Of a stretch of 64,000 nucleotides of DNA, positions 23,001 through 63,926 are shown piece by piece. The position numbers were made by a program, and so were the translations under genes. Source of the stretch: Owenia fusiformis (taxonomy: Eukaryota; Annelida; Polychaeta; Sabellida; Oweniidae); NCBI GenBank assembly GCA_903813345.2, contig CAIIXF020000002.1, positions 24,936,455-25,000,454 on the forward strand. The letters run 5' to 3'. Position 1 is the first letter of the stretch, and every line of letters starts with the position of its first letter. Under the pieces are notes generated by a model. The model was given only the letters and a program-made list of their open reading frames with translations, made no database searches and had not been told where the DNA came from.

Positions 23001-26000
23001 ATTCCAAGGGTTGTATGACTCATAAGAAGCAATTAAATGCACATGCAATTTAGTTATATTTCTTTTATACAAAAATCTTAAATTTTAACCCCAATTACAC
23101 CTAACTAAACACTTGATTCTGGAACCGTGTTATAAAATTTGCTAAAAATGTGTTCAAATGGATAAGCTTGAATGTAAAACATTTTTAAAACTTCGTGGAC
23201 AAAAGATAAGTTAATGTTATTATACACACGATGACTGCCATTGGGGGAGATGGAGCAAGGTATTTTTCCCAGGGGTATATTCCGTCCACTGACATGGTCA
23301 CAAGATTGCCGGGGAAACAGTCAGTGGACAGAATAATCCCTAGAGAAATCTCTGTGCACTATTTTTGGGAAAGATAGCAGTTATTGTTTGTTGTACTATA
23401 TTGTACTTCATATGTACATGTATATGTAAGGTAAACAAAATAAATGGAAACATATTTTCAATTGCAACATTTAATTGTGACATTTCGGCATTTAAATGCA
23501 TTTTGCTATTCAAACTCCCAAACTCTTAAAGTCCCCGATAAATCGGGCTACGTATACCGCCGTGTTTACATTAGGGGATTAGAAGAGTTTATTTTTTATT
23601 TAGGTATGCAAGCTACGTATATCAATATTAGGCCTTCATTCATGTACTCGTGTGCATGTAATCAGCATGCCCTTCAATATTATGTAAACCAGGCTATTCA
23701 AGTATAATGTACACTATTTATGTGTGTACTACATACAATACAATTCCCTGGGAAACAAAACACAAATACGTTTTATATGTTCAAAATGAGCCATTTGATT
23801 GATGCAAACACTAAATAGCTTCATAAATAACATCTACAAAGTATATCTAATAGTAATTTTCAATTTCAATGTTGAAACTTCCCTGGTTAAGATTATATGG
23901 GAAATCATCACGAGACGAAGATCGTTCGCCTTCCTGGCTTACCTCTGAATCGTGTACCGGGCAATCTCTTTATATAGTTTAGCGAGAGCGTTGCGCCTGC
24001 GCAGTTTTAAACTTTGGCGCACATTTTAAGATAACTGCACATTAGCACTTTTTCAGGGACGGAGACCGTTAATAAATTAGAATCTAGAATACATATCTGG
24101 AATATTATAAAATGGTATAGCCGTTAAACCTTACCATGGTCTTACTGTAGGATCATATGACCTCTGCAGATAACTTCCGGGGAACATCTTAAAAATGCCA
24201 TTGGCTGTTCCTATATATAACCAAAGAACAGCCTCGTCCATACGCCAAAAGTCATCGATATGTCTCATGACTGACACAGTATCACGGATGTCAGGCTTAC
24301 AAATGAAAAATATATTTCTAAACGAACAGTACTGGTATATTTGTATGGTTAAAATCCAAAGATGCAATTAAGTGATAATACAGAAAAAATCATGCTTGTA
24401 ACGCACTTCATCCCAAAGTAAGCCAGGCCATGCGAGCGTTTGAGCAGCCGTTTCAAATTAGCAACGAGCGACAATGCTTTTATAAAATTATTGTTACGAA
24501 CTCTTGGCCTGCTATTATATCAACATTTGTAATCATTTAACATTTCACAAGCGGCCTGTGACACCTATTAAAGAAATAACTATCCTTTCAATAAACTGAC
24601 CTTGAATCCAGGATTTTCACCATTGCCCTTCATATAACCGACGTATCGCTCAATATTATTGTATGTTTCCACATTGCCGAGGAAACTATAGGGGTCTAAG
24701 AACGTCTTTGCAGCGAAGAAAACTGTTGACCTGTCTAATTTAGGAACAATATTCTTTTAGCAAAATGGAATGGATTTGACGCCATGAAGATGTCATATGA
24801 CTTCTTACAATAACCATATTTTAAAATAATGAGAATTATGTTGACAAAAGCAAAGAATAAGGAGGATAGAATATAGAAACCAATATAAGTGTTGGTTTCG
24901 TAAAATTTATATCAATGTGAGATAATGTGATGTAAAGATTTTAGACACTCATACATTGTATAACTAAAAAAAGCAATAAATACCTTTAATAGCAGCAGCT
25001 GTATCAAAATGTTTGCACTTCTTATAGTTTTCCATATCAATACGGTGATAGTAAAACTGATCTAGAGGTCCTCTACTAACAATCTCATATGCTACATCAT
25101 CTTTAGGAATCACCATGCAGAAAGACAGTTTTGTTCCTTCAATCTAAATTAATAATTATGGATATGAAGAATCGATTTATCGATGTTTTACCTCCAAATA
25201 CATATTGTTTGGTTATTATCAAAATATGTCGGATTTATTTTCTGGGAGATAAAGCCTTATATGGCTATGTCTCGTCAAGTAAATTTATCGAGCAAAGAAA
25301 GAAAATATCTTACCGGACGCCAACCATATTTAGATATGACCGTCCGAGTGTAAACTCCTTCCATAGACGCTGCGCCCCGGGGGAATACTTGTTGTGATGT
25401 CACTGTTTTACTACCGTTTCCTCCACTAGTCATTGATGCGATAATGCTTTTTACTTCAGCCCCACGTTCGATATTATGCACAGGAACAAATATAGGATCG
25501 TCCTCGATCAAATATGGTTTTGGGAGTAGCGGATGAACCATGGTTCGTTCTTCCTGGTCAATGATAAATGTATACGATCCCTCTCCATCCGTAAAATACG
25601 TTGCATCTTCCATTAAGTCTTCCATTGTCATATCGACACAAACTACTCCTTTAAATTTTGCAGTATAATGGAGGGGCAGACAAATCGATGTAACCATTCC
25701 TAGAATATGCAGAATTATCAACTTTCACATACGCTTAAGATTTAGCTGATCATTTTGTGGGAAAATGTGAAACGGAAATTTTAATAAATAACCTTACACT
25801 TCACTTTGCAGATTAAAGCTATATTTTCCAAATGTGCTTAGTAAGCCTTAAGTATGGTCACATGTAGCGAAATATGTCTGCCAATCATCATTACAGTAAA
25901 AACAGTGTGTATTACCCCATGTAACCTCTCAAATTTTTAATTTTAGATATTCTATAGATTGAAAAAGTATAACTTTTAAAGTAAGGGTTACACTCTGCGT

Positions 26001-29000
26001 ATACGTATTATATTATAGACACTTATCATCTGTGAGATCCCTACAAGCAATTCAATTTAATAGTGCACATTATTTAAAAAAAACTTATAACGAAGTCATG
26101 CCATACTTATTGCATGCGATTATACGAATTGTATGATTTAAACGAACCCTACCTAATCCCCATGCATCCACATATGGCGTCGATATGATAGGATGGTTGT
26201 ACTCAACATTGCTGAAGAAGTTGTAATATGAGGACATATCGTGTCGAAGAGTTTTTATATTACCCACACGTGTATATTCACCAACCCTACCATTTAATGA
26301 TGTCATTTTAGCCATCTTTGATAAAATGGCTTCATTAAGTGCAGCCGCTGAAATAAAACAGACTTTCTCATGTTATCATACTGTTATCACTTTTCATACG
26401 AAATGGATTATAATGCACAGCGGAGAAATGTGAAAAATTGTAGAGTTAAAGTAAAAATGAAAAAATATATGTAAATTCAGATGATATATTTGAACTAATG
26501 TATAATGCCATTTGCTTCCTTGTGTTTCTCATATAATTTATTTTTCACAATGTTCTTGTTCGGAAGAACATATTTTAGATGTAATTTCGGAATTGCGACC
26601 CCTTATGAATTCGAAAGGGATGAACAGTGAGGCGTTTAGTGAGACCGTTACTCTCTTGTGAACTTAGAAAATGTTTTCAGTGTAGTCATCGCAATGTGTC
26701 TTTTACCGAATAGCAATTTTTTATAATTTTTAAGTATAATAAAGATAATTGATTAATCAACGAAAAATCAAACAGCAACATTATTTTTCGAAAGATGTTC
26801 TTATTTGTGGAATACACGGTAAGCGAAAAATGTTACAGATTTTAAAGTGAAAAACTCATTTATTATTAGTGCCAAAGATGTTCATCTGCTAGTTCTAATA
26901 ATAATAATTTAAGGTTCCTCTAACTAACCTGAGAAATTTCTTTACTTTTCATAGCTTTCGGATGTTATTATTGGTCTCAAACTTTCTGAAATGACTGAGA
27001 ATTGATGAATCTCCATAGTAGTGGTTTTCATGTACGTCTTAGTCATCTTAGAATGTTTGAGACCAACCATGAATGAGTTATTACACTTTAAAATCAGTGA
27101 CATTATTGACCCACGCTGTACAAACATGTATTGTTTCAGATCATTAGCTATCTTTATAGTAATTACTCACCTCCACCTATCCCGTATGTAAGTATCACTA
27201 TTTCATTTGATATCATTTTATTTTCATTTTCAATTGTTGTGAATATATCTTTTGTCGCAGCATCAGTTGGTTCACCGTCAGTGAGAAATAAAATTGCTTT
27301 GCCTGAAATTTAACACATAAAAATTAGATTAGGTTTTAACGCATTTGACAATTTGTTTTAATTCGTTTGATTCTATTCTTCCATAAACTATTAGATAGAT
27401 CATTCAATTTAATATTCAAATACTAGGAATTTTGCTGACATGAAATGAAACGTGTATATACTTACTTCTCTTTTTCGTTGAATTTGTCTCAAAATCAGCA
27501 CTGTTTTTAAACAGCGAGAAAGCTACTTTTAGTGCACTGGCATATGTAGTTCCACCAGCGGCATGAAAACCATCAACATTCTTTTTTAGGATTGCTTTGT
27601 TCTGTGGAATTGCTAGAGCCAGTTGATTACCAAAGCAGAGACTTTTCTTGTGGTCTCCAGGCGCTACTAACGTCCCTTGATTAAACCCAACGACTGCAAC
27701 CTGTAAGGAAACAAATTAATTAAATCATAGATGGACTTGGACTTTTCTCTCATCAACTTATAACCTTTAAAGGTTTTAAGGGTCCATTTTGGGGACCCTA
27801 GAGCAAATTATTTGCGACAATAGTACCAGAAATGATAATTCTACCTAGATGAAATTTTATTTGATTCTCAATTAATGTATGTCCTTTCCTATAAAACAGA
27901 CCAGATTGAAATCGCATGGTAACTTTTTGTGCTACCTGGGGTCAAAGCACATCACTATCACCAAATTATATTGCAATTATATATCGTTATACATAAATGC
28001 TGCAAAATGCCATAAAAGGATATGACATCTGACCCCATATGATTAGGTTTACTCACATTGCCTTGCACCTACGATAAATAATGCATATTATACTATGAAC
28101 GGTAATTGAATAGCCCATTTAAACTGAAATCAGGATAAAAAAAAGCTTTTCTGGTTGCAGAGTTATTCCAAAATATGGGGTCCGAACGCGTTAAGTTATA
28201 AGGGGCATTGTAACCGAGGCAATTTTCCATATAATTTTGAAGATATCTAAGTATATGATATTCTGACTTCCACTTACCCGATCAGATGGGTTAAGTGTAT
28301 CGAGGACAGAATTTGCAGCATCTTTAGCAACATCTAATCTTGACATAGACCGACTATGTGACACTGTATGAGACATCGATCCCGATTTATCTATAACTAT
28401 AACAACATCCTTGGGTTCGGGTGTGGCGGACTCAACATACCATGGTCTATAAGTTATAAAAATGAAAGAAATTTAAACAAATGAAAGTGACTGAATCTCT
28501 GTGTAGGACGAAACTAGTGATACAAACATAATTTGAATATTGAATTGAATGTTTTTATTACATAGTTTTACTTTTAATTTACAATTTATCTAAACTATAG
28601 ATTTGTCAGCGTTTTCTTTTTGACAACGTCACTACAGACATAATTTTGAATTTGCTTTTTTTGTAATTAAAATTCCTATGTGGGTATTACAATCAGTACA
28701 TTTCCTCCTTCAAACCCCCTCAAAAATTATTCAAATCTTAGATTGTAGTCTTAATTAGGCCCGGGTAATTAGGCAATGTGTGAGATGATGTGAGCTCAGC
28801 ACATTTATGGGAATGGCGTGTCAGATTTTCTTTGTTGCCTAATTCTATATATCGTCTTGTGAAGTATTGTACTTTATTAATTCATAGCGTATATTCTTTC
28901 AAAAAAAATTTATATTGGCCAATAAAGAAAAGAAGTACTCACCTAAACCGGTTGTCATAGTCGCTACACGTGCCCATAGCTGCCATTGGGTACGTAATCG

Positions 29001-32000
29001 TTATGCCTTGTTCGGTGCCAACGTACTGCCATTTGAGGCTCGGTAGGTTTCTTAATGAAACAAAATTTAGTAATGCATTTTGTACAAAACACAGGGAAAC
29101 TTATACGATATCGACATTTCCTTCAATTGTCTGAAAAATATCATTTTATAACTCACTGGTCAGCACCAATCTAATACAACGTTCATAACCTAAGATGGCG
29201 GACAGTAATTGTTGATTTCAATATTTTTAGTTCTCGTTGATACAACTACTTTATAGCTGACGTTATGCTTTAATATTTGAACAAAATCAGGCGTATGTGA
29301 CATGGGAACTATGGAGTGTGATCATGTATGATCATATAACGTTACCGCATCACCACATATCTTATCATATGTAAAACTAAAGTCCCAGTTACCTTCTCTT
29401 AAACGGTGGAAGATATCGTTCTCTGGTGTCTACGCATGGTGCATTAACAAATGATTTTACTCTAGAGTTTCCATGTCATATTATCGTTGATAAAGTTCAA
29501 ATATCATTAAGCATTACGTCAACTGTAAAGTGATTTATTCGATGAAAAGAAAAATATCGAAATCGAGGTTTCGGTTGTTTCCTCGCTTGATACTGATAAG
29601 TGTACCTGTTTTTTTATAGTAGACTCTAGCAATAATAAATTATCACTATATGGCACCTACTTCATATTTTCCTTCATGACCTCAGCAAGTCCTTTGTGAA
29701 AGTACTCGCGTTGGTTACGATGTGGTGCTGTCTCTGATATCTGAATACAGGCGTCACCCAAGTCGACCTGGAAAAAACAGTAATTAGCAATAATAGTGTT
29801 AACCTTATGTATATACACAGCAACAAGACCACTAAAATCACCTGAATTAAAAGTAAATAAAAATGTATAAAGAATTCAAAACATTGTCCTACCCCCCCCC
29901 CCCCCCTATCACACCAAATAAGTTCTTACCCGTTCTTGCCAGTCCTAGGGAAATGTCGTAAAACGGGCTCAATCTGGCTGCGGTCGGGATATGTGTCTAA
30001 AATAATTAGCTACTTCGTTCATAAACAGTCTTCAATACGTCCATCTCATTCGCAGTTCGTTCAGGTCGCACCACGTCGGTGTGCAACGTAGTATAAACCG
30101 TCCCTTAGTCTAGAAGGTCATCATGACCTGATTACAGAACGGTATGGTCGCCATCGAATTTTGAATCGATTCAAAATTCTAAATCACATACCCCGTCCGG
30201 GAAAGTCCATGAAGTTCGTAAACGTAGAACGTTGTAGCTACGTTCATTCAGTTCGCACACAGTTTAAAGGGTTCCGATAAGCATCCCGTATAAAAACAAT
30301 ATGGCGGCTCCAGGTGAATGAACTGGATCAGTTCATTTTTAAGAAATAAGGGGAGTTCTGTAAAATCCAGTTTATTGAAATTGTCTTTGAGATAAAGTAA
30401 TCCGTTTATAATGATTTTGAAAACATTATCCATAGAGAGATTGCGTTCAAAGAATATGTACAACAGCCAATATAAATCCTTGTATTAGAACTGCTTTGTT
30501 TCATTTGCAGGATATTTCATATGCCAAGCTGTATGCTATTACGTTATGGGGAAAAGATGTCAATTTTTCCTTATTATACACAAATAGAAGCTCCTGAAAC
30601 TTCACCCATAAATGTGGAATTGATTTGTCAAAATAAAAATCACCCTTTTATAAATATGTGACGATCTATAATAAACTTATACTATATAACAGTTAGAGGT
30701 GTTGACACAACGACCTCGAGCCTGTGAACCCTTGAGTATAATTCTGGGATCGGGCCTTTTATACTAAACGGTGAGCAACACCAGAAACGAGCGTTCGATT
30801 TGCTAAACGATATGCGTCACCCTTTAAAACCGATTTGGCAACGTTTTGACGATCACCAGAAAATGTTGAGCATGCTCTAAGTGCTGGAGGACCTACTCGT
30901 TCTAGTAGTTTCATGAAGTTTGTAAACATATCCCAAACGGTTCTTAGTGGGTTCTTAGTACGTCAAATCCGTCCGCGCACAGTTTAAGCCCGTTTTCGAG
31001 AACGTAGTGAGAACTAGATCGGTGTGATAGTAGGATACCTTAGCTTTAAATCGTTCGTCCCGTTCTCGCGGTCTGCTGTGACAACATTCCTGTTGGGTAG
31101 GACTTTTAGTAAAATCTCCATAATTTCTCTCAATGGCATCCTCAAGTTTACGAGCTGCATTTATGTAACTATTGAATTTGGTGTCCAGAGAAGAAGAGAG
31201 CTGCAAAACAAAGTTCTTACTTAATTTTTTACTTCACTAAATATTGCTTCTATTTTCAGATCATGTGTACTCTAAATAACGTCTATAGGTTATTAGCTAA
31301 ATATAAATATTCAATACCAATCATTCTAAAGGCTAATTAAAATAATATCAATTCAGAATTATACATGCATTACATTGGCTGAACATCTTAAATCTTCTAA
31401 AATTACTAAAATTTCAAAGTACCTTCAGATTATTTGTTTCCAATATTTTTTGCTCTACCATCTATGGTTTGCTATTATCTTAGGAATAAAGAGTATGATG
31501 GAGCTGGTTATTCCGTTTTAGCGCTAGCAATTCCAAATTAAATACCTGGTTTAAATCAGCCTCAAAGTTCACAAATCTTTTCAAGAATTTCACATTCTTG
31601 TCGAGATGATACTAAAACATATTGAAAAAAAGACTGACAGCAATGTTACGGTGCGTGGGGTGGTATTCAGTAACATTGTGTGGTGTAGGATTGGTCTGTG
31701 GTAAAGCATAGGTTGAGTTAAAAATAAATGGCATGCTGTTTAACATAAAATAGTACGTATACGTAGAAGTTGTGAATTCAATTTAGATGTAAATATGCAA
31801 CATTTTTCCAATACTGTAACCCGGGAACGATTACCCAGAATCAAGTCAGTGAGCCATTACATATATTTAAATATATTTTCACATGCAATGATGTTGCGGA
31901 TAGAGCAATACTAATAGGGAACATCACGTTTATTTCCAGCGTTATAAAATGCAAAATAAAGGCCTCTACAATTGATTGGGTGTGCATCGAGGAAAAACTA

Positions 32001-39725: not shown

Positions 39726-42700
39726 TTAGCTATGTTTTAAATGCAACACGTCCCCTGGCATCGTATCGTTAAAATGCATTGCAGATTTATATGGTGATGG
39801 GCGGTCATCATATGACCCAGATACAGTATAAGCACGATGGGTGTTCGCAATGTTCTGAAGCTCCATGGATCTTTGCCTTGCAGTTACTTTTCTTTTTTGC
39901 TTATATTTGTAGACACATATGATAGTAATTATTATACCAAGCAGAACACACGCTCCCCCTACACACCACCCAATTATTATACCCATGCTACCCATGTCAG
40001 CATTTTTTCCGTCTTGGTTGCCACGTGTCTGTGTCGGTTTCTGTTTTTCTCTCTCAGCACCCGATTGTATTTCACAATTCGCAAATAAACACACCCGGGA
40101 CTTTTTCCATTCACATATACCAGAGTGAAGACAATCACTGAAACATTTAGATGCTGGACAATTATACTTTACAAATAACGGACAGGTGAACTTAAAGTGG
40201 TTTTATTTTAGATTTTGTATTTGTTGAAACAAGCATTTTAAAATATTTAATGGGAATATGCCCTTAAAACCCTCCTCATATTTTTGAGTTATATACATAT
40301 ATATATATCTTAAGAATTGTAATTTAGCGTATGGTTTCTATTGAAATAACGGAAAAACATTGGACAATTGAAGTCAAAGAGATAAGAAGAAAATGTTATG
40401 TCAATGAAATATCAATGACCTAATTATATAAAGTCAATAAGTAGCCATTCACACATAGCAAATGTCCTCTATATTTTCAAGGTTATTTTTGTTGCATTCA
40501 AAAAGTATCGTCTTACCTCCTGGTCTCTTTGTCTAAACAATTTATGTCAAAACAAGCATCATACGACTGCACCGTCTCTTGGTCAATATTTGTAATTATT
40601 TTCGATGGCGGTATATCTGGTGTACACGTGGGGTAACCATCACTGGAAATATACTATATGGGCTTATTTACGACAATTGATATATTCAAATATATTTAAA
40701 TTCTGTTATTCTATGAAAGTCTGCGTAATGCGTGTTAATATCAACAACATTTAATCTGAGGTATTTTGATGTTAACATATTTGTTATATTTTGAAAATAT
40801 TGCTTAGCATTTTTTTAAAATTTTAATGATGATTTTTTAGACAAAAATCAAAATTTGCTTTTATCAACTCGATCAACATTCAACATAGAATGTGTATTGT
40901 CGCATGATTGCAATGCATTGTGTAATATGTTGTGTTATGTAATGAAACAATGAATAAATAAATTTGCAACGGTGTTGATCTCTGATAAAAGCGAAAGTTC
41001 TAAATTAGACATAATAATATAGGGCAGGTTTAATGCGATGCCTATGGTGTAAATTCTGTGTCAAAAGTATTACATACCTAATTCAGTAGTTTGGGTGCAC
41101 CAATATAAAAATCAGTGCCTATTTTGTACTCCTGACATATTTAGTGGAAATTCCGGTACCTATCTCTATATTAGATGCCTGTTTAAAATTAGGTGACCCA
41201 ACTTTATTTTTCGGTCACCTAATTTTATCTGGTACCCGAATTCTGTACTATGATAAACACTTAGCCCAATTGTTCTCTCAATCGCTACTGGAATCAATTC
41301 CGTATCTAAAAACATTCAGTACGTTAAAAAATCCGGTACCCGAAAAAATACCGTACGTCGAAAAATCGGGTGCCGGAAAAAATTCCGTACGTCGAAAAAT
41401 CGGGTGCCGGAAAAAATTCCGTACGTCGAAAAATCGGGTGCCGGAAAAAATCCTGGACCCGATTATCGCCTCCCTTTATTAAAAGATGTCGTGGTATTCG
41501 AGCGTCCATAATTTCTTGGACAAAAATATGGATCCGATTATCGCCTCACTTTGTTAAAAGATGTCGTGGTAATCGAGCGTCCATAATTTCTTGAACAAAA
41601 ATATGGATCCGATTATCGCCTCCCTTTATTAAAAGATGTCGTGGCAATCGAGCGTCCATAATTTCTTGAACAAAATATGGATCCGATTATCGCCTCCCTT
41701 TGTTAAAAGATGTCGTGGTAATCGAGCGTTCAGATATTTCTTGGCCAAAGATAGGCTATGTACCTGATTGATTTTGAAAGAATTTCTGGCCAGGGGGGGG
41801 GGGGGCAACCAAATTGGGGGCGATGAAAAAAGCCCCGTAATCATCATCAACATCGTGTTTAGGAGGGTGAGGTATAGTCCTGTGTTATCCTCCCTTCTGG
41901 TTTGTTTAGTAACAGTGTTCATATTAGCGGTTATTTGCTAGATCTATCTTTGGTATTTTATATTCCAAAGACAATTGCACGTTGTGGGGGCAGTTTTTTG
42001 GGGGGGCAGTTGCACCAAAATTTGGGTAAAATTGGACAAAAAACTGGACACATAATGAAAGGCCCACCTGTTTTAGTGTCCAAAAAAATATTTTGAGATT
42101 GATGATGATGATTGATGATGCCACTTTGAAATAGCCGCCAGTAAATCCATCCAATCAGGACTCCTGTAACAAATAACGCGTGGGCAAAGCTGTGTCAAAC
42201 AATCAAATTAAGGCTTACTTATTCCGGATGGCGGATATAAAATTAATCTGTTATCGCACGGTTTTTGGGAGTGGTGACTTAGACAATGTCCTGAGACATC
42301 ACCTGTAGTAAATACGCATATGTCATGCAATCTGTATTAATGGTGATAGGTCTCGTTCGGGGGGATGGGGGCTGGGAGACAGCGTCTAGTAGCTAAGCTT
42401 CCCCTAACCACAGTCAGTACTCATGTGACGGGTCGTGTATATTTGCCAGTAGATCCTATCATATGGTAATGACATTGATGTGTTATTCCCTATCTTCATT
42501 CACGTAAAGAGAGGCCGGACATCCCGATCCTGTAGCGGATCTTCTCCCTTATATGTTGGTCATTATAAGGGCCCAAGATGTTTCGAATTCATGGGGGTAT
42601 TCCATGATTGTTCTTCATCAGCGGCCGAAAGAATGTTGTATGTGATTTGATTCTGAATGATAATGCTGTTTTATTTCTATCATTCAGTTGTATTTTAATA

Positions 42701-45700
42701 GGTTTCCCGTATTCGTTTTTGGCGGGAGGGGGTGGTTGTTTATGCGTATTGGTTTATTGCATAAAGGTGTGGTCAGTTTATTGATAAGTTTTGGTTTGGT
42801 TTGGTTTGGTTTGCGGTTAGGCCATATGGTCGTGTATGTTATATATTGATATTGTGTGTATTTAAAGGGTTGTTGGCTTGTTCGTGTTCGGTTGTATCTT
42901 GTGGAATTTTGTGGTGTTTTCAATTTGTTGAGTTGGTGTGCGTTTGGCGGTGACTGTGGTAGGTTAAGGGTGGGTGAATAGCTTTTGGTAGTTCAGGTGG
43001 TTTATTTAGTGTTTCAACTTTCCGTTGGTATATGCGATATGTAGTTAGTATTTCTTGTTGTTGAGATATTAACTTAAATGTACCGTTTAGTGGTCCGTAT
43101 TTCAAATATTTCGATTTTCTTGTATTTTGTTTTAATCGAACGCGTATACGTATTGGTTAATTATATTGGGGTATGGTCAGTTCAGTGTTGGAATTTGGTT
43201 TAGTTGTTTTGTTCATTGTTTGCGCTTCATTGTCATGTGAGTTTTGTGTTGATATTTTGTGTGTTTGAGTATAAATTAATCTGTTCGTGTATGGTTGTAT
43301 TTTTTATTTTCCGGCATTTTGCTGTATTTTCGATTTGTTAAGTCGGTTTGAATTTGGTGGTGACTGGGGTGGGTCAATGGTAGGTAAATTGCCTTTTAAT
43401 GGATCAGGTGGCTTGTTTAATGTTTCAGCTTTCTGTTGGTGTGTGCATTATGTTCGTGGCATGTTTTGTTGTTGAGATATTAACTTTAATGTAGGGCTTG
43501 ATGGCCCGTATTTCAAATATTTTGATTTTCCCATCTTTGTGTTTTATCGGGAGGGTGTATGCGTATTGGTTAATTATGCATCAGGGTATGGTCAGTTCAA
43601 TGTTGAAATTTAATTTGGTTGTTTTGTTCATTGTTTCAGCTTCATGGTCAGGTATATGTTATGTTTAAATTGTGTGTATTATAAGAGTTGTTGACTTTTT
43701 CCGTGTTTGGTCGCGTTTTGGTGTTTTCGGCATTTTGCGGTATTATCGATTTGTAAAGTTGGTTTGAGTTTGGTGGTGACTGGGATGGGTCTTTGGTGGT
43801 AAATTGTCTTTCGATGGTTCAGGTGGCTTGTTTAATGTTTTAGCTTTCTGTAGGTATGTGCATTATATTCGTGGCATATCTTGTTGTTGAGATATTAACT
43901 AAAATGTAGGGTTTGATGGCCCGTATTTTGGGAGGGGTTGACTTAGACCATGTCTGAGACATCACCCCTTGTGAACACGCATAAGTCATGCAATCTGTGT
44001 CAAATGGTGAGCGGTCTCGTTTAGGGAACCTGGGAGACATAGTCTAGTGTCTAAGCTTCCCCGAACCACTGTCAGTGATTATGTGCCAGGTAGAGTATAT
44101 TTAGTTGATCCTAGGATGATGACATTGTTGGTGTCACTCCTATTGTCATTTTTGTAGAGACAGGCCGGACATCCCGATCCAGTAGTGGATCTTCTCCCTT
44201 ACTTGTCGCTAAAACAAGAAATCTTTTGGGAAACAAGACACCAAGGCGCACTACAAGCAATTACCAACTCGCTCTCGGGGATCCTAAAAGGGCTCATCCC
44301 CAAAATACCATGTGGGGTACCCGAAAAAGACACGACTGACATCAAAGAAGCGTTCGACGCAATATTGTACAAATGCGGAAACGACTTGAAAGATGCGGCA
44401 ACCCTACACAGCACACAAGACTTGCCTTCCACAAAAAACAGGTGGACACCCTCACAATCAAACTGGCCAGCACAATGGGTAAAACTGAAGCAGAGAAAAC
44501 AACCAAAGAACTACGAAACACAGCTTCAGAATACAAATCAAAAAGGAAACAAGCCACGACACCTAACCAACGCAGCAGATAACAATCTTCAACAAACCCC
44601 AGCCCTTTTCAGGGCCACCTATTTCTACCAAAAGAGTTATTACATTTATGAAGTATAACCAAAATTCCTTGAAATAACCTACCAATGTATGACTGTATGA
44701 AGGAATAAATGAATGAATATAACAACCAATAACGCACCACCAGGTGACTTGTTCGGGTCAGATAGCATGGCGCGTATAGTAGAAAGTTCACATATAACAA
44801 CTACCGACACCAACAATATAACCTTACCCATTCATACACTTCGAACTCACCAAAATCAACCTTACCTACCAATCTTAAAAAATATCGCCCCTTTTAACCA
44901 AACTTAAGGGAATTAATAAAAAGCGACATCTTCCTATAAAACCGACAACAATTCCGCAACACACGGAAAACAATATCTGAATATTCATATACGGGAAGAC
45001 AGCCCCCAAAATCAATTCAATATCTCTACAACAAAACATGCCACCAACACAACACACATACCAACACGAAGCCAAAACATAACACAGAACAACCAAACCA
45101 TTCAAAACAAATTAACCCACCAAATGGGTACCACATACGCCACCAAACCAACACCACATCCACAAACCAAAACACCACAAAACTCAGATTAAACCAAAAA
45201 AAACGGTTATGCGCAAACAAGTTCATAACTCCCTCAAAACAGATACTATCAACACAAAAAATACCTCACAATAAAGGATAAAGAAAAAACAACACAACTA
45301 AACCAGACTTAAACAATAAACCAATCACACACAGACACAATTAACCAATATGCATACACCCTCCCGATACAAAACAAATATTGGAAAATCAAAATATTTG
45401 AAATACGGACCACGAAACCCTATATTCAGGTTAATATCTCAACAACAAGATATGCCACCAACATAATACACACACCAACAGAAAGCTAAATCATTAAACA
45501 AGCCACCTGAACCATCAAAAGACAATTTATCTACTATAAACTCACCCTAGTCACCACCAAACTCAAACCAACTTAACAAATCGAAAATACCGCAAAATGC
45601 CGAAAACACCAAAACGCGACCAAACACGGAAAAGCTAACAACTCTTCTAATACACACAATATGGACATAAAATATACCTAACCATGAAGCTGAAACAATG

Positions 45701-48700
45701 AACAAAACAACCAAATAATATTACAACATTGAACTGACCATACCCTGATGCAATCAACCAATACGCATGACCTTCCCGATAAAACACAAATATGGGAAAA
45801 TCAAAATATTTGAAATACGGGCCATCAAACCCTACATTTTAGTTAATATCTCAACAACAAAACATGCCACGAACATAATGCACACAACAAAAGAAAGCTA
45901 AAACAATAAACAAGCCACCTGAATCATCGAAGGACAATTTACCACCAAAGACCCATCCTAGTCACCACCAAACTCAAACCAACTTTACAAATTGATAATA
46001 CCGCAAAATGCCGAAAACACCAAAACGCGACCAAACACGGAAAAAGTCAACAACTCTTCTAATACACACAATATGGACATAAAATATACCTAACCATGAA
46101 GCTGAAACAATGAACAAAACAACCAAATAATATTACAACATTGAACTGACCATACCCTGATGCAATTAACCTATACGCATACACCCTCCCGATAAAACAC
46201 AAATATGGGAAAATCAAAATATTTGAAATACGGGCCATCAAGCCCTACATTTAAGTTAATATCTCAACAACAAAACATGCCACGAACATAATACACACAC
46301 CAACAGAAAGCTGAAACATTAAACAAGCCACTTGATCCATCAAAAGACAATTTACCTACCATAGACCCACCCCAGGCACCACCAAACTCAAACCGACTTA
46401 ACAAATCGAAAATACAGCAAAATGCCGGAAAATAAAAAATACAAACATACACCAACAAATTGATGCCTCCTCAAACACACAAAATATCAACACAAAACAC
46501 ACATGACAATGAAGTGCAAACAATGAACAAAACAACCAAACCAAATTCCAACACTGAACTGACCATACCCCAATACAATTAACCAATACGTATACGCGTA
46601 AAACAAAATACAAGAAAATCGAAATATTTGAAATACGGACCACTAAACGGTACATTTAAGTTAATATCTCAACAACAAGATATACTAGCTACATATCGCA
46701 TATACCAACGGAAAGCTGAAACACTAAATAAACCACCTGAACTTCCAAAAAGCTATTCACCCACCCTTAACCTACCACAGTCACCGCCAAACGCACACCA
46801 ACTCAACAAATTGAAAACACCACAAAATGCCACAGGATACAACCGAACACGAACAAGCCAACAACCCTTTAAATACACACAATATCAATATATAACATAC
46901 ACGACCATATGGCCTAACCGCAAACCAAACCAAAACTTATCAATAAACTGACCACACCTTTATGCAATAAAAATAAACCAATACGCATAAACAACCACCC
47001 CCCTCCCGCCAAAAACGAATACGGGAAACCTATTAAAATACAACTGAATGATAGAAACAAAACAGCATTATCATTCAGAATCAAATCATATACAACATTC
47101 TTTCGGCCGCTGATGAAGAACAATCATGGGATACCCCCATGAGTTCGAAACATCTTGGGCCCAATGACCAACATGTAAGGGAGAAGATCCGCTACAGGAT
47201 CGGGATGTCCGGCCTCTCTCTACGTGAATGAAGATAGGTAATAACACACCAATGTCATTACCCTAGGATCTACCAAATTTACACGACCCGTCACATGAGT
47301 ACTGACGGTGGTTAGGGGAAGCTTAGCTACTAGACGTTGTCTCCCAGCCCCCCCCCCCGAACGAGACCTCTCACCATTAATACAGATTGCATGACATATG
47401 CGTATTTACTACAGGTGATGTCTCAGGACATTGTCTAAGTCACCACTCCCAAAAACCGTGCGATAACAGATTAATTTTATATCCGCCATCCGGAATAAGT
47501 AAGCCTTAATTTGATTGTTTGACAATTTGCCCACGCGTTATCTATTACTGGAGTCCTGAATGGATGGATTTACTGGCGGCTGTTTCAAAGTGGCATCATC
47601 AATCATCATCATCAATCACAAAATATTTTTTGGACACTAAAACAGGTGGGCCTTTCATTATGTGTCCAGTTTTTTGTCCAATTTTACCCAAATTTTGGTG
47701 CAACTGCCCCCCCCCACACAACTGCCCCCCCCCCCACAACTGCCCCCCCCCCCAACAACGTGCAATTGTCTTCGATATATAAAATACCAAAGTTAGATCT
47801 ACCAAATAACCGCTAATATGAACACTGTTACTAAACAAACCAGAATGGAGGATAACACAGGACTATACCTCACCCTCCTAAACACGATGTTGATGATGAT
47901 TATGGGGCTTTTTTTCATCGCCCCCAATTTGGATGCCACCCCCCCCCCCCCCCCCCTGGCCAGAAATTCTTTCAAAATCAATCGGGTACATAGCCTATCT
48001 TTGGCCAAGAAATATCTGAACGCTCGATTACCACGACATCTTTTAACAAAGGGAGGCGATAATCGGATCCATATTTTGTTCAAGAAATTATGGACGCTCG
48101 ATTGCCACGACATCTTTTAATAAAGGGAGGCGATAATCGGATCCATATTTTTGTTCAAGAAATTATGGACGCTCGATTACCACGACATCTTTTAACAAAG
48201 TGAGGCGATAATCGGATCCATATTTTTGTCCAAGAAATTATGGACGCTCGAATACCACGACATCTTTTAATAAAGGGAGGCGATAATCGGGTCCAGGATT
48301 TTTTCCGGCACCCGATTTTTCGACGTACGGAATTTTTTCCGGCACCCGATTTTTCGACGTACGGAATTTTTTCCGGCACCCGATTTTTCGACGTACGGTA
48401 TTTTTTCGGGTACCGGTTTTTTAACGTTCTGAATGTTTTTAGATATATATATATATAGAGATAGGTACCGGAATTTCCACTAAATATGTCAGGAGTACAA
48501 AATAGGCACTGATTTTTATATTGGTGCACCCAAACTACTGAATTAGGTATGTAATACTTTTGACACAGAATTTACACCATAGTATGATGCCTCATACCAA
48601 CTGATGTAGTTTCAATACTATAATTGGATAACGAAGTGAAGGCAACAAACCTTCTCAGTGGAAAGTCGTTGTTACAATAGTCAAACTGAGCCCTGGAATA

Positions 48701-54700: not shown

Positions 54701-57700
54701 TGGATGTAATAATGCTTTCAACCTCGGACCAATGTTCAATATTATGCACAGGAACAAAAATAGGATCGTCCTCGATCAAATATGGTTTTGGGAGTAATGG
54801 ATGAACCATGGTACGCTCTTCCTTATCAATGATAAATGTATACGATCCTTCCCCTTCCGTAAAATACGTTGCATCTTCCGTTAAGTCTTCCATTGTCATA
54901 TCTACACAAACTACTCCCTTAAATTTCGCTTTATAATGGAGAGGTAGACATATCGACGTAACCATTCCTAAGAAAGAAAAATTTTCTTCATTATCCTAGT
55001 AATTGTGGGGGGAACTGGGACCAGAAGTACACTCAATAATTAATTTTTGCGCTCCATATGATTTCTTCAAAACAGACTAACAGAGTGACACACACGTAAA
55101 GTGCTATGTTAAGAAGCAATTAAAGGATTGGTACAAGTGTGTGGTATTGAGCATGTTGCGGTTGAGGTTATTATATGTGGATTTGCATTTGGTATATAAC
55201 ATACAACGAAGGTTTCAGAAAAAGTACGCATCTTAAGAGGAAAAGCTCTAGAGAGCATCTCGTTGTAATATCAATTGTATGATACGGGTTGAGTCGAAAA
55301 TATGTAATTAATCATGATTTAGTCATTTAACATGGGTTATATCGAGCACAATTAAACCGTGTTCTATGCTTTTTCATTCTACCATTTTTAATTGATTTAC
55401 CATCGGGGACACGATTTTATGGCCACTTTACGAATTGTGATCATAATGCCAACCTCATCTCATGGTCCCCAATCAAAGACAATGTCAACAATAACAACCC
55501 TAGAAGCATCAGAGAGTTAAAAATAGAAAATCTCGGGAAGATGAGAGTAATTACACACAATGGTTTTGAGCATGTAATAAATAACTTCGCCCATTTCCCG
55601 AAGATTGCAAGTAAAATGCTAATCAGATCGTGACCATTGGGATAAATCAATGAAACTAAGTAGAATGTTAGGACATTAAACGTGGTTTAATTGTGCTAAA
55701 AATGATTTCAACTCCATGCTAAACAACTGAGATATTTTCCTGCTTACATTTACAAAACTCAACATGTACAAATTAAAGTAATCCTACCTAATCCCCATGC
55801 ATCCATATATGGGGTTGAGATTATAGGATGGTCGTACTCAACGTTGCTGAAGAAGTTATAATATGAGGACATATCGTGTCGGAGATTTTTTATATCACCC
55901 ACACTTGTATATTCACCAACCCTACCATTTAATGATGTCATTTTAGCCATCTTTAATAAAATAGCATCATCAAGTGCAGCCGCTACAATGAAAATATAAT
56001 TTTATAATTTACATATTCATTTATTTTAGTTAATGAAGAATGACATTTTCTATCTTGTTCTTCTTATATTCTTTTTTTTTCACAAAATACCCTTTGATTT
56101 GGACGATACTAATCTAGTACAGTATTTAGATGACTTTCGAAAATATGGAAACTAGATGCAAATGATAATTCTTGAAAGACAAATATGCCTCCGTTATGGC
56201 ATCACAGACATAGTCTTTAAGCATACCGTTGCATAATGAATTATACTTTGGAACTTTAATGACTAAGAAAATACTCCATATTATAGCAAATAAGCGACAG
56301 CATAGGATAGCAAACGACAAAAAAAGATTATCATTTAATTTAAGTTCGTAGCTTTCCTCTAATGTAATGCATACATGCAGGTGCTGTTTGCGAATCATCA
56401 AATTATTTTTGATTACCTCCACCTATACCGTATGTAAGTATCACAACTTTATTTCGCAACTTTGCATTCCCAGTTTCAATTGTTCTGTATACATTTTCTA
56501 TCATAGTATCAGTTGGTATCCCGTCCGTAAGAAAAAGAATGGCTTTGCCTGCAGAACATAAAAACGCAATACCAGTGTAAGCTTTAATGACTGTTACGAC
56601 ATCTTCTATATTTAAATTTGTTATCCTTGCTGGTGATACAAACCTTCTCTGCTCACATAAAAACCTAAGTACTCTCATTACTCATGTCAACTCTGAATTA
56701 GAAAATCTTGACGAATTGCTATATGCAAATAAACTATCGCTTAACACAGAAAAATCATAATTACACAGTTTTGTTGAATCTGCTTGACCGATGTTTGAAA
56801 AAACTAATTAACCACTTAAAATTATAATTAACTTTCACATAATGATAATCTACTTTATTGTATATATGTTCAGATTAACGCCTAAGATCTCAAAATGTGT
56901 AAAATTACGAATGAATATATTTACGATTTTTGACCCTTTGTAATGAAAGACATATTAAGAAAACGGTATTTTAAAAAATCAAAAATTTGGGGCCTCCTTA
57001 AATATTGGTTCAAATCATGCTGCGCTATATTGTGCAACGGACTTTTCATATTCTAGAGTCATACCATGGACTACTCTCTCGAGTGATCCATGGTGAGTTA
57101 GCCATTACTTTTAGAGGGAAGTGTACCTTTAAATTGTCCTAAACTCACTTCTGTTTTTTGCTAAATTGTACTCCAAATCAGCACTACTTCTAAACAGCGA
57201 GAAAGCATTTTCTAGTGCATTGGCATAGTTTGTACTACCAGAGGCATGGAAACCGTCAATATTCTTTTTAAGAATTGCCATGTTTTGTGGAATTGCTAGA
57301 GCCAGTTGATGGCCAAAGCATGAGCTTTTCGTATGATCTCCAGGAGCCACGTATGCCTTTCCAGAAAACCCAACAACTGCAACCTGCAAAACATACGGAT
57401 TATAAACTCTTATTTTTTTCTCACTTTCTCAACTATCGTCAATATAATATACAGTGTTAAAAAAACGCAACCCAAAGAAATCACTATATCTTGGAAAATA
57501 CTAATGCAATTGTGTCCATTTTTTCAGGAAAGAAAGAAAAGACTGTGTATGTATAGCTCCTGTAATTGGTTAGTTATAAAACATGATGCCTTAGACACCT
57601 GCTCAAAAGATATTAGAATTGGAAAGATACGAAGAACGCAGGCAGGGGTGACTGCCACAGCAATAAAACCGAATAACTTTCTAATTATAGTGTTTTAGCT

Positions 57701-60700
57701 CTTCAAATTTGGCACAAATCATCTTCATTCAAAGTATGGTAAATCTGTAGAGTGAAATCAAAATCACTCCTGGGACTTTACAGTTATGGTCGAAATGAGT
57801 TCAATACGCAGTCAAACGCCCTGGTTCAGGCAGACTTAAGAAGGCATTTTGACCATGACTCTAAAGTCCCTGGAGTGATTTTAATGAAACTCCACAAATT
57901 CACCACACATTGAATGAGAATAATTTGTGCCAAATCTGAAGTGCCAAAACACTACGGTTAAAAAGTTATTCAGTTTTATTGCTGTGGCAGTCACCTTTGA
58001 CTGCGTTTTTTGTATCTTTCTAATACTAATGTCTTTTGAGCAGGTGTCCAAGGCTTCATGTTTTACAAGTAAATAACTACAGGACCTATACATGCACAGT
58101 CTCTCCTTTCTTTCCTGAAAAAATGAGTGCAATTGGATAAGTATTTTCCAAGGTATAGCGATTTCTTTGGGTTGCGTTTTTTTTAACACCCTGTACATGT
58201 ACTGTAAAAGGAAAGAATATATTCTGGATTTTGAAGCGATCGGAGGATGACTGTATCAATTGACTACATCAATTGGTAGCTAGGCATTATTTCATTTGTT
58301 TATGTTAATATATCACAGGCTATTAAACTTGTAAGGTTCGTACATATTTCAAAAGTAATAACAATGATTACAGCATCTGTAGCACCATCAAATCTCGTGA
58401 TAGACTTAAAATTGACTGTTGTGACAATATCACAATATGATAGCCAAACATCGATTCTAATTTATATATCAATATAATAATTACAACATTTTAATTTTTT
58501 GAATTCCACATACTCTATCGAGAGGGTTAAGTGTATCGAGGACAGACTTTGCAGCATCTTTAGCAACATCTAATCTCGACATAGACCGACCATGTGGCAC
58601 TACTGTAGCCATTGATTCCGATTTATCTATAACTATAACAACATCCTTTGGTTCGGGTGTGGCGGATTCAACATACCATGGTCTGAAAAAAAGATTTTCA
58701 ACATGAAAGAAATTCAAGATAATGAAATTTAATTTAAGAAAGTCTTAATAGTAAACATAGTTCTAATCTGCTTGTGAAGTTATGCCATATTCAACATTTT
58801 AAATATATAACATTATTTTTCCTATTGGGAGAATTGTATAATAAGCCAAACATGCTACTTAAACATAGGCTTGTAACATATTGTATTGTAAAAAATATTT
58901 ACACAGTACATAGTAAATGTGATTATGTGAAACAAAATGTTCTTTGTTGGTAAGTCGTTTAGAAGTACTAGTGACTTAGCAAGTTTGATGCTTATATCAT
59001 CTGACACACTGAGGTACTCCTTAAAACAGTCGGAGCCGCAATCACCGAGAATTCTTATCAATTCTGAATAAGACGAATAGGAATAATGCATAAGATGTTC
59101 ATTATTCCCCTTATTCTTCACATTGACTGTGTGATGAATTTTACACGATTTATTATATCACGAATTTTTTTCAAATAGCGTTCCAACCTAAAACAACAAA
59201 TTGTATGAAGTAATTTACTTTTTGTCGTAAAACTCACCTGAATCGGTTGTCATAGTCGCCACACGTTCCCATAGCTGCCATTGGGTACGTAATCGTTATG
59301 CCTTGTTCGGTGCCAACGTACTGCCATTTTATTTTCGGTAGATTTCTTAATGATACAACATTTGAATAATGCATATTTTATGCAAGATAAAGAGAATGCA
59401 ACGATTAATCCTTAATAACACAGGGAAATCCATAGTGACGCTGCAAGAGTAGAAAATTCTACACGTATCAAGTTCTTGTCTTCAACTAAAAAAATACCCC
59501 TTTCATAATGGTTATTATTCCTAGACTCTAGTTATGATAAGATAATACCACCTACTTCATATTTTCCTTCATAACTTCAGTTAGTTCTGAGTGAAAGTAC
59601 ACGCGTTGGTCTTGACGTGGCGCTGTCTCCGATATTCGAATACACCAGTTGCCCAAATCGACCTTGAAAAATAATTATCGATAGTGTAAACTTTGTGTAT
59701 ATACATATACAGGGTGTCCCAGAAGTATACCCCCTAGGCAGACATAGTGTCGTCATTGTATGTGTCATATAAACGGTGTAATTTTTTCCCATTTGGGTGT
59801 TAAACCATGATACTTTGCAAATCAATGTAACTTTGGATAAGCTTTAAAATGATATATGACACATACTATGAGGACACTGGAATATGTCTGCCTATGGGGG
59901 CCCATACTTTCAGGACACCCTGTATATATATAACAATAAATACGCCCACCCCCCCCCCAATCAAAAGTAGATAACAAAAATGATCAATCAATTTCTAGAC
60001 ATTGTTCTACCTTAGCTTTAAATCGTTCGTCCCGTTCTCGAGGTCTGCTGTGACAACATTCCTGTTGGGTAGGACTTTTAGTAAAGTTTCCATAATTTCT
60101 CTCAATGACATCCTCAAGTTTACGAGCTGCATTTATATAACTATTGAATTTGGCGTCTAAAGAAGCAGAGAGCTGGAAATCAAGGTATATTTTACTTCAC
60201 TAATTATTGCTTCTATTTTGATGTGTACTCTTATAGCCTAGTCACATAGCCCGGCCGATGAGGTTCCGATGAGCCAGCGATGCAATTTTCACCAAACTCG
60301 GCCGAACACCGGCCGGACATCCGTGGCGTTTGTTGCTTTAAACCGCATCGGTGGCAGCTCGGTGAAATTTTAACTTCGGAGTTAAATTTCACCGGGCTCT
60401 CACCGAGCTCCCTCATCGCAGCCCCATCGTAACCACATCAGAACACACGTCGGCCGGTGCACGGCCGAGTATCGGTCGGTGTCCCGTGCATCTGAGACAA
60501 CCAGAGGACGAGGTTTTTTTAACGAACACCGGCCGAGCTCCGACCGAGCTCCGGCCGATGTGGGACAGAGCCTTGGAAAGTATAGTACCTGAAGATGTCC
60601 GGACGGAGTCCGTTCACGTCACCGAGCTCTGCTTCCGATGAGGAGAGCTCGGTGGCACCAAAAAAATCCACCGAGCTCTACCGATGCCGGACATCGGCCG

Positions 60701-61110: not shown

Positions 61111-62380
61111 CTAAAACATATTGGAAATATTATGACTGACAACAATGTTACGGTATTTAGTCATATGTTGTTGTGTAAAATTGGTGTATGGTAAAAACAT
61201 AGGTTGTGTTAAAAATGGATAACACAACAAAAAACATTGTGACTTCAATTAAGAATCACCTTTAACTGAGGAACCGAATGTGTACACCGTTCGAATGTTA
61301 GAGAGTTTCTCCCTCTTATATGGTTTGCACAACGTTAGGAATACCTGAGCTAAACAAATGATAAAATACAGCACCCAACCATTTTCGTAGCGATTTGTGT
61401 CGAAGTGCTATACGAGTATTTTATGAGTAATTTGTAATTCAAGTTAAGAGAATTTCACAACTGCGATAACATAAACGTCCGCCATTTTGTACTGTCACGT
61501 GACTCCAATAAGGCGATATTTTTTGAATTTCCAGTGCTGATTTTTACGTAAAAAGGATCCCCAAGATGATATCCCAATATCTTTCTGTATGTTTCGAAAT
61601 TCTATGTGATTCAAATTCTTAAGCAAAATGGCGTCTGTTTGAATTCAAATTTTGTAATCCCAACATTAGCATATCGTAAAACGGCCATGCAGATCTGAAT
61701 CTATTCTCTCTGCATTTACAATGAAACTTCCTACTTGTCAGCTTGTGTACCCAATTCATACTAATAGGGAACATTAGTGCTTGCGTAATAAAATGCCAAA
61801 TGAAAGCACCCTGCTGTAGCATGATGGTTACGCCACCTCTGAAAACGAGGTTAGACGGCTACGTTCACTGATTTATTCAATAAAATGCCCGGGGATAACA
61901 TGAAATAAGAGAAAAACTGTCGAGTTTGAAATTCAAAACTTCACAAAATTTAGTAATTTGTTTATTTTTGTTGTTAGGGCATGGTCTACATTGCCTAAAA
62001 ACCTTGGGTACAAGTATATAGATGTAACCTACATACGATCATACAAAGCCAATTGAGCGTTGGAAACCACCTAATATGTTCTGATTTGACAGATGTACAG
62101 GCACGTAAACCGTCCGCTAAATATCTTATGTACAACTAATACAATACGTTACCGTCCATAGCATTCGATAGAAGTCATACGTAGTCGTCTAACGACATTG
62201 CGTTTGAAATTTTATTATTTACGATATACACCACGTTCCTGTTCTGGATTTGTCATTTCATGCCTTGTTTATACACAGTTTACTTACAGTTAATAGTCTG
62301 AGTGGCTCTGAGGCACATGTACTGAGAAAACACGAGAATGGACCAAAAATTATGAACTTGGATATCTCAGTCGGCTTACG
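61111..62380. other. upstream of gene B exon 2, no exon recognised
   Basis: Non-coding similarity to gene A continues to about 61225, and again near 61755-61805 (actaatagggaaca, like 31908-31925). No counterpart of gene A's signal-peptide exon is seen. Confidence 0.5.
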
Positions 62381-62551
62381 GACAACTCATCCCCTAGACA
62401 ACTCATCCCTGGACATCTCATCCCCTAGACAACTCATCCCCTAGACATCTCATCCCCTAGACAACTCATCCCCTGGACAACTCATCCCCTAGACAACTCA
62501 TCCCCTGGACAACTCATCCCCTAGACAACTCATCCCCTGGACAACTCATCC
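62381..62551. repeat. 16-bp minisatellite, left (gacaactcatccccta)
   Basis: About eleven copies of gacaactcatccccta/g. The reverse-complement array is at 63624-63803, so the two arrays form inverted ends around 1.1 kb of unique DNA. Confidence 0.9.
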
Positions 62552-63623
62552 TTCATCACATGAAGCTAAATTGTAAAGTGTGTCTTGAAAAGAAATGCTT
62601 AGTAAATACATCTTAGATCATTCAAAATATTATTTTTCACTTTACTGACACAAATAAACAGTCAAACGATGCCATCAAAAACTCTCATCTCTTCTTCTTA
62701 TTTTACATGACTCAATATTTCCTGACCAAACAAATAAAATTCTCTTTGTGTATAACTTAAACATGAACTTCATTAACTTCATCTGTGAATGCTGTGAAAA
62801 AATAATCTTTGGATTAAAGAATATTTGAGCTATGAACAACAAACATATTATAACATCAAAGGAACTTGTTCAATCAATGTTAATACAGAGACATATATTG
62901 TTTTATATGTCTCTGGTTAATTAATATCATATCGAAATGAAAAGTAAATATTTACAAAACAAATCACAGATTAATTGGTTGATTATCTCTTTGTTTTTTA
63001 GCAATTTTCCCCTCCAGAAAGTTTTGTTAATCACTGGTACTCCAATAGATTATGCTGGTTACTGAAACGGATTGTAACAAAATGTCGGAACCTCAAAGAA
63101 ACGATCGATTTTGATTTTTACCTAATTCCGGTGTTGCAGGCAGAATTCCCACGACATTTTTATCACAAACGTTTGTCGGTATCATATGTTTAAGAAAATG
63201 TACATGTTTGCAAACAAATAGTACAGAAGACAACAGAATCGTTGATTTAATACCTCACTATTGTTACATAAACCATATCTAATTGAAAGCCCATGCATAA
63301 ACGGAACGGGTTAGAAGTGCAGATCTTAACCTTTTAGAAGTTCTGTTTTCATAAAGTTTCAAAAGCGAGACATAGAATGTCATGGGAATTCAGCCTACAA
63401 CTCGTGAAATAAGGAAAAAAGAAAAATCGTATATACCTTCGAGGCTCCAACATTTTGTTACCCAAACGGATCAACAGCGTAATTGAGTGGAGTAACAGTG
63501 TTCATGTAATATATGTTTTTTGAAACTTAAAGCTGACCATATCCACAACCAAAACATTTAAACATTTGAATTGGTAATATAATATCAAAAAATTACTATA
63601 CTCAAACATGCCAAAAGATTAGT

Positions 63624-63803
63624 CGTCCAGGGGATGAGTTGTCCAGGGGATGAGTTGTCTAGGGGATGAGTTGTCCAGGGGATGACTTGTCCAGGGGATG
63701 ACTTGTCTAGGGGATGACTTGTCCAGGGGATGAGTTGTCTAGGGGATGAGTTGTCTAGGGGATGAGTTGTCCAGGGATGAGTTGTCTAGGGGATGAGTTG
63801 TCC
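63624..63803. repeat. 16-bp minisatellite, right, inverted
   Basis: About eleven copies of ggatgagttgtctagg/ccagg, the inverse of the 62381-62551 array. The sequence ctcagtcgg flanks both arrays on their outer sides. Confidence 0.9.
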
Positions 63804-63926
63804 GGTTACCTCTCAGTCGGTAGGTTTACAGCTTATATTCTGCTTCTAGTAAACCACCTGGCAGATTTGACCCAGTCCATCCATGTAAACGTCACCGGAT
63901 GGAACTAGTTGAAAAGGAAATCTTAC

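Follow-up and report, generated by a model that had tools for sequence, protein, structure and literature searches.

A histone-type 3′ stem-loop signal after the gene of a fold-back-like element, and after other non-histone genes, in Owenia fusiformis

Why would a gene that lies inside a mobile element, and that is not a histone gene, end in the kind of signal that closes replication-dependent histone mRNAs? In histone pre-mRNA, the hairpin is bound by SLBP and the downstream element base-pairs with U7 snRNP; CPSF73 cuts between the two. Histone mRNA is stable in S phase. The locus that raises the question lies in a 64,000-nucleotide stretch of the O. fusiformis genome, which we refer to throughout as the window. 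An earlier note, made from the letters of the window, had described a stem-loop, an ACC and a downstream element, laid out as in histone mRNAs, shortly after the stop codon of a transposon ORF. We found that the histone-type 3′ stem-loop signal at 44601-44616 is real.

The signal in the window and the histone 3′ ends of the host

The histone 3′ ends of the same genome (498 Mb in 525 contigs) served as the yardstick. A search with the Rfam family RF00032 (Histone3) gave at least 74 places, 73 of them over the gathering score. This count is a lower bound, because 75 of 98,199 candidates were scored, and three sister copies of the element (L002, L003 and L004) exceed the gathering score yet are absent among the 74. 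Seventy of the 74 places were taken as loci L025 to L094, leaving out C3:1720607, C8:2309305, C8:2311875 and C7:16778105, whose hairpin falls within L074. A tblastn search with five histone sequences placed a histone upstream of the hairpin at 25 of the 70 loci (20 H1, 3 H2A and 2 H2B). L092 was assigned as an H2B at its own hairpin, and L052 and L074 as loci with a frame resembling that of L046.

We built a covariance model, R1, on 23 distinct 3′ ends of host histone genes; it is independent of the element. The consensus of these ends (alignment A1) is GGCCCTTTTCAGGGCCACCCATTACTTACAAAAGAG and their downstream element is CAAAAGAG; the loop bases of the hairpin vary among them. A U7 family search found no match in the genome and none in its controls, and it is no evidence because the controls gave nothing as well.

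The window site carries the host signal, with a hairpin, an ACC and the CAAAAGAG element at host spacing, and the layout described in the earlier note holds when it is set beside these histone ends. Histone mRNAs are cleaved near this ACC, and CCAAAAGAG begins eight bases beyond it in the window. Five of the six stem pairs form around a four-base loop. The outer pair is A·C in the window copy, because position 1 is an A, where L018 to L021 have a G. R1 scored the site at 52.4 bits (E 1.5e-11) over all 57 model positions, with no gap between the hairpin and the downstream element; the second best of the 12 window matches reached 16.8 bits. The stop-to-hairpin gap is 18 nt in the element gene versus a median of 30 nt at the host histone loci.

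In the Rfam check proposed in the earlier note, RF00032 scored the window copy at 25.7 bits, with E 2.3e-5 for a 251-nt piece; its gathering score is 34, and no Rfam family reached its gathering score anywhere in the 64-kb window. Across ten sources (L001 to L010), the gathering score was reached by L002, L003 and L004 (36, 36 and 35.2 bits, respectively), and E was below 0.01 in nine; L009 was the miss.

Table 1. Features of the element in the window, and loci of one family of non-histone frames
Feature	Position or loci	Strand	Remark
Whole element: unique core between long inverted arms; ends CTATGGTG...CACCATAG	41042..48582	.	blastn of the window against itself
Left arm; tandem arrays of 34-bp, 75-bp and about 412-bp units	41042..44206	.	
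Unique core with gene remnant and 3′ signal	44207..44971	+	matched by seven further core copies of the genome
3′ part of the element gene	44205..44582	+	aligned to the 232-aa frame of L023; ends in TAA 44580-44582
TAA stop	44580..44582	+	18 nt upstream of the hairpin
Histone-type 3′ stem-loop AGCCCTTTTCAGGGCC	44601..44616	+	outer pair broken in the window copy
ACC directly 3′ of the hairpin	44617..44619	+	
Downstream element CCAAAAGAG	44628..44636	+	matches the host histone downstream element at equal spacing
AATAAA, possible poly(A) signal	44704..44709	+	in 4 of 9 aligned sequences (window, L018, L019, L023), read by eye
Right arm, with the arrays of the left arm in inverted orientation	44972..48582	.	
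Helical-looking frames, about 100-165 residues, uninterrupted, before a histone hairpin	L028, L029, L032, L040, L045, L046, L050-L052, L059, L060, L064-L066, L074, L076, L077, L083, L084, L089, L093		

The element, its gene and its copies

As the earlier note had proposed, the gene belongs to a mobile element. The element spans 7.5 kb, and the gene lies in its core, between long inverted arms. When the window was compared with itself by blastn, 41042-41171 paired with 48582-48453 at 100%, so that the outer 130 bp are identical, and 41303-43928 paired with 48445-45813 at 94%. An arm segment is repeated at 43926-44206, where it is 78% like the direct copy and 81% like the inverted one. Arm sequence flanks the core on both sides in L018, L019, L020 and L023 and matches on one side in L021; L022 and L024 keep short arm remains. 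The end sequence recurs in L020 and in L021, at one end of each. With its long inverted arms, scattered copies and shared ends, the element belongs to the long-inverted-repeat (fold-back-like) DNA elements. The octamers that flank it, TGCGATGC and TATGATGC, agree at six of eight positions when read as a possible target-site duplication. No transposase was recognised when three window frames and the intact protein P0001 (below) were scanned against Pfam.

The surroundings of the element hold further repeats. Window 17228-31725 and 39878-61216 share short direct matches (71 to 95%) whose order is mostly kept. A multi-exon gene appears to have been duplicated here, and the element to have inserted into one of the two copies or next to it. 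Other inverted structures in the window are a 0.7-kb palindrome (57454-58189), a 0.5-kb inverted pair (9207-11281) and inverted 16-bp tandem arrays (62379-63804).

The gene copy in the window is a remnant. It is 5′ truncated and frameshifted near 44410, and about 1.8 kb that is present in L018 is missing from it at the junction 44205-44206. The distance of 18 nt from TAA to hairpin given in the earlier note agrees with the coordinates. That TAA is the stop of frame 44340-44582, the C-terminal one of the gene; the listed ORF 44185-44658 does not end there and reads through the hairpin in a different frame. L023 has an uninterrupted 232-residue frame, P0001, and its TAA is placed identically before the hairpin.

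The element gene does not encode a recognisable histone, as the earlier note had held. Pfam scans of the three window frames and P0001 gave nothing over cut-off, and in a collection of 5.8 billion proteins neither the window frame nor P0001 had a relative at E ≤ 10, within a reach of relatives that share exact 5-residue words. AlphaFold2 on a four-row alignment returned a low-confidence model of P0001 (mean pLDDT, 49.7) with C-terminal helices (block means, 56 to 72). A comparison with the L051-type family described below was also made, and hhalign detected no relation (Prob 0.1).

For the selection test, 12 sequences were laid on the L023 frame; L011, L013, L015 and L021 were left out, and L010 had too few codons. 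The dN/dS was 0.20 for L023 with L012 (207 codons) and 0.21 for L023 with L017 (193 codons), and it ranged from 0.16 to 0.30 for L023 against all listed others. The window copy, L018, L019, L020 and L022 gave 0.09 to 0.32 against L012, L014, L016 and L017, and the young pairs among those five gave 0.31 to 1.45. The values among L012, L014, L016 and L017 were 0.44 to 0.82. L024 gave 0.42 with L017, 0.57 with L016, and 0.12 to 0.18 with the others. Purifying selection therefore maintained the P0001 protein in the past in the L023/element lineage; among the recent copies and among L012 to L017, constraint is weak or absent.

Searching the genome at the DNA level with 44400-44800 gave at least 40 places (40 of 1,049 candidates scored), and we compared the core with 16 fetched loci. 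Seven of these, L018 to L024, align with the core through the hairpin, and all seven have the motif, whose absence from other copies would have spoken against the proposal of the earlier note. The hairpin reads GGCCCTTTTCAGGGCC in L018 to L021. All six stem pairs are present in L018 to L021, in L023, which has two loop changes, and in L010, a diverged old relative that reads GGCCCTTCTCAGGGCC. L022 has one stem change, at the first base and the same as in the window copy; the outer pair is thus broken in the window, in L022 and also in L009. The single stem change of L024 breaks an inner pair. The downstream AAAGAG is lost in L010 and has a 4-nt insertion within it in L021. R1 scored L018 to L024 at 43.4 to 59.8 bits, L010 at 36.7 and L009 at 51.3. 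Conservation among the core copies says little, because most of them are young. Between L010 and L018, 18 of 19 positions are kept in the hairpin and ACC, with the sole difference in the loop, and 58 of 90 positions are identical downstream.

The other loci, L011 to L017, match the coding part only. Their 3′ ends differ and lack the signal (nothing above 15.2 bits with R1). Therefore, not every member of the gene family has the signal; it is carried by 8 of the 15 loci that match the coding part. A 36-bp stretch of arm sequence lies upstream of the gene in L012 to L014, and L011, L015, L016 and L017 had no arm match.

L009 matches the element in the 3′ region only; outside that region it is related, in decayed form, to the cysteine-rich genes L085 to L087. 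Over 63 nt of its hairpin region (L009:1056-1118), it is 92% like the element and 84% like the best histone 3′ end. An exchange of 3′ ends between L009 and the element is possible.

Other non-histone genes with histone hairpins

In 45 of the 70 fetched histone-hairpin loci there is no histone upstream of the hairpin. A mechanical test found an ATG-started non-histone frame of at least 80 residues, ending 14 to 108 nt before the hairpin, in 32 of the 45; the 32 include a decayed DDE frame (L091). The 13 without such a frame are L049, L054 to L058, L063, L068, L071, L075, L078, L080 and L081. The loci are not independent events, because near-identical ones such as L054 to L056 are counted singly. 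The median stop-to-hairpin gap was 30 nt at histone loci and 34.5 nt at non-histone frames, before L052, L074 and L092 were reassigned. The ending regarded as histone-only thus appears to be more widely shared among the messages of O. fusiformis, because many non-histone genes carry it.

The frames are of several kinds. A large family of helical-looking proteins (coiled coil by eye, not by prediction) forms clusters on C8 and C3 (Table 1). Pairwise dN/dS among ten members was 0.12 to 0.38. The L051 protein had no relative at E ≤ 1 in the 5.8-billion-protein collection, again within the reach of shared exact 5-residue words. The cysteine-rich genes L085 to L087 also end before a histone hairpin (dN/dS, 0.35 to 0.49). 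Two frames are GDSL/SGNH-like: L042, with PF00657 over cut-off and the hairpin 28 nt past the stop, and L079, below cut-off and with the hairpin 14 nt past the stop.

One locus, L044/L095 (C3:1551305), has an intact 342-residue Tc1/mariner-like frame with a DDE_3 transposase domain (E 8e-18). A six-pair histone hairpin lies 52 nt past its stop, and there is a TATATAA upstream. L075 and L091 are decayed relatives. blastn and exact 12-mers found no convincing pair of inverted repeats in 4.6 kb around L044/L095, and it may therefore be a domesticated gene.

Seven of the loci, L054 to L058, L063 and L068, are copies of a dispersed repeat, alike over 0.6 to 2 kb around a six-pair hairpin and up to 99% alike over 2 kb. 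Six of them have AAAAAGAG, and L063 has AAAAAGAT. No clear gene was found in this repeat. It is possibly a second mobile element with a histone-type signal.

Explanations weighed and comparison with known systems

We put at roughly 70% the probability that the site is the 3′-end signal of the gene in the core of the fold-back-like element, of host histone type and processed by SLBP and U7. The observations behind this reading are the motif, its position, the copies, the past selection on the protein, the host consensus and the other genes with the same ending.

A chance hairpin in a repeat is very improbable. The Rfam score of the window copy does lie under the gathering threshold, and 4 of 5,000 dinucleotide shuffles of 44500-44750 held an equally good hairpin, but none held the hairpin together with the downstream element. 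The score of the host model, at E 1.5e-11, stands far above both the window background and the shuffles, a comparison on which the earlier note had staked its proposal, and the Rfam threshold is passed by three sister copies. It is also unlikely, though less so, that the mRNA is processed in the ordinary way, being polyadenylated at a downstream AATAAA while the hairpin persists as an unused relic. The window copy does have such an AATAAA at 44704. However, the hairpin is found in all nine aligned sequences, with stem damage in three, versus AATAAA in four of the nine, and the host model R1 matches hairpin and downstream element together in each of the eight core copies examined, window included.

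A weightier alternative, which we still doubt, is that a host gene was captured by the element, histone-type 3′ end included. Selection on the host source would then account for the low dN/dS, and the signal would be a decaying passenger. Many host-like non-histone genes have such ends, so a capture could bring one along, and there is little constraint among the young copies (dN/dS, 0.31 to 1.45). Coding relatives without arms do exist (L011, L015, L016 and L017), though they are also without the signal, and none of these four showed a full-length frame. Moreover, the only uninterrupted full frame among the fetched loci, that of L023, has arms on both sides, and 36 bp of arm sequence still precede the gene in L012 to L014.

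Under the favored reading, that the site is a working 3′-end signal of the element gene, the element mRNA is most likely made by the host SLBP/U7-type 3′-end processing. The signal would run from a six-pair hairpin with a four-base loop through ACC to the CAAAAGAG element, which is expected to pair with U7 snRNA. SLBP would bind the transcripts of intact copies, and the U7 machinery would cut them after the hairpin. The cut transcripts would carry no poly(A) tail, and the gene would therefore be expressed mainly in S-phase cells, such as dividing germ cells or cleaving embryos. We infer the S-phase timing, the missing tail and any benefit to the element from sequence. The element need not have acquired its ending from a histone gene, because many short uninterrupted non-histone genes share it. 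More broadly, we lean toward the view that histone-type 3′-end formation has been released from histones in this animal. In that case, dozens of short intronless non-histone genes would use it, including mobile-element genes and a transposase-type gene, so that expression of elements would be tail-less and tied to S phase; its probable site would be the early embryo or the germ line.

Given selected non-histone genes and mobile elements with a complete signal, one can test directly what confines the pathway to histones elsewhere, and whether an element benefits from tail-less expression coupled to S phase. If the broader view is true, poly(A)-selected RNA-seq would miss a set of genes in such animals. 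PMC6303110 describes the stem-loop end as a feature that, of all protein-coding messages in animals, histone mRNAs alone possess, and PMC6510757 concerns other 3′ stem-loops, those of human L1, Alu and mRNAs. Titles and abstract openings, from a literature in which most subscription journals fell outside the scope, contained no account of histone-type stem-loops on transposons or non-histone genes.

Three known systems bear comparison with the element. The Tc1/mariner-like DDE_3 gene at L044/L095 likewise joins a transposon-related protein to a histone hairpin after the stop; it differs in that no inverted repeats were found in the 4.6 kb around it, and it shows no sign of kinship to the window element. 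FB, Galileo and TU are fold-back or long-terminal-inverted-repeat DNA transposons. The window element resembles them in that a short core lies between inverted arms of several kilobases, which contain tandem arrays. Unlike them, it has no recognised transposase, and its core gene has a histone-type ending. Finally, with replication-dependent histone 3′ ends, as modelled in RF00032 (Histone3), the element shares the hairpin, the loop, the ACC, the purine-rich downstream element, the spacing and the short stop gap, whereas its gene, in contrast to replication-dependent histone genes, is non-histone and sits in a mobile element.
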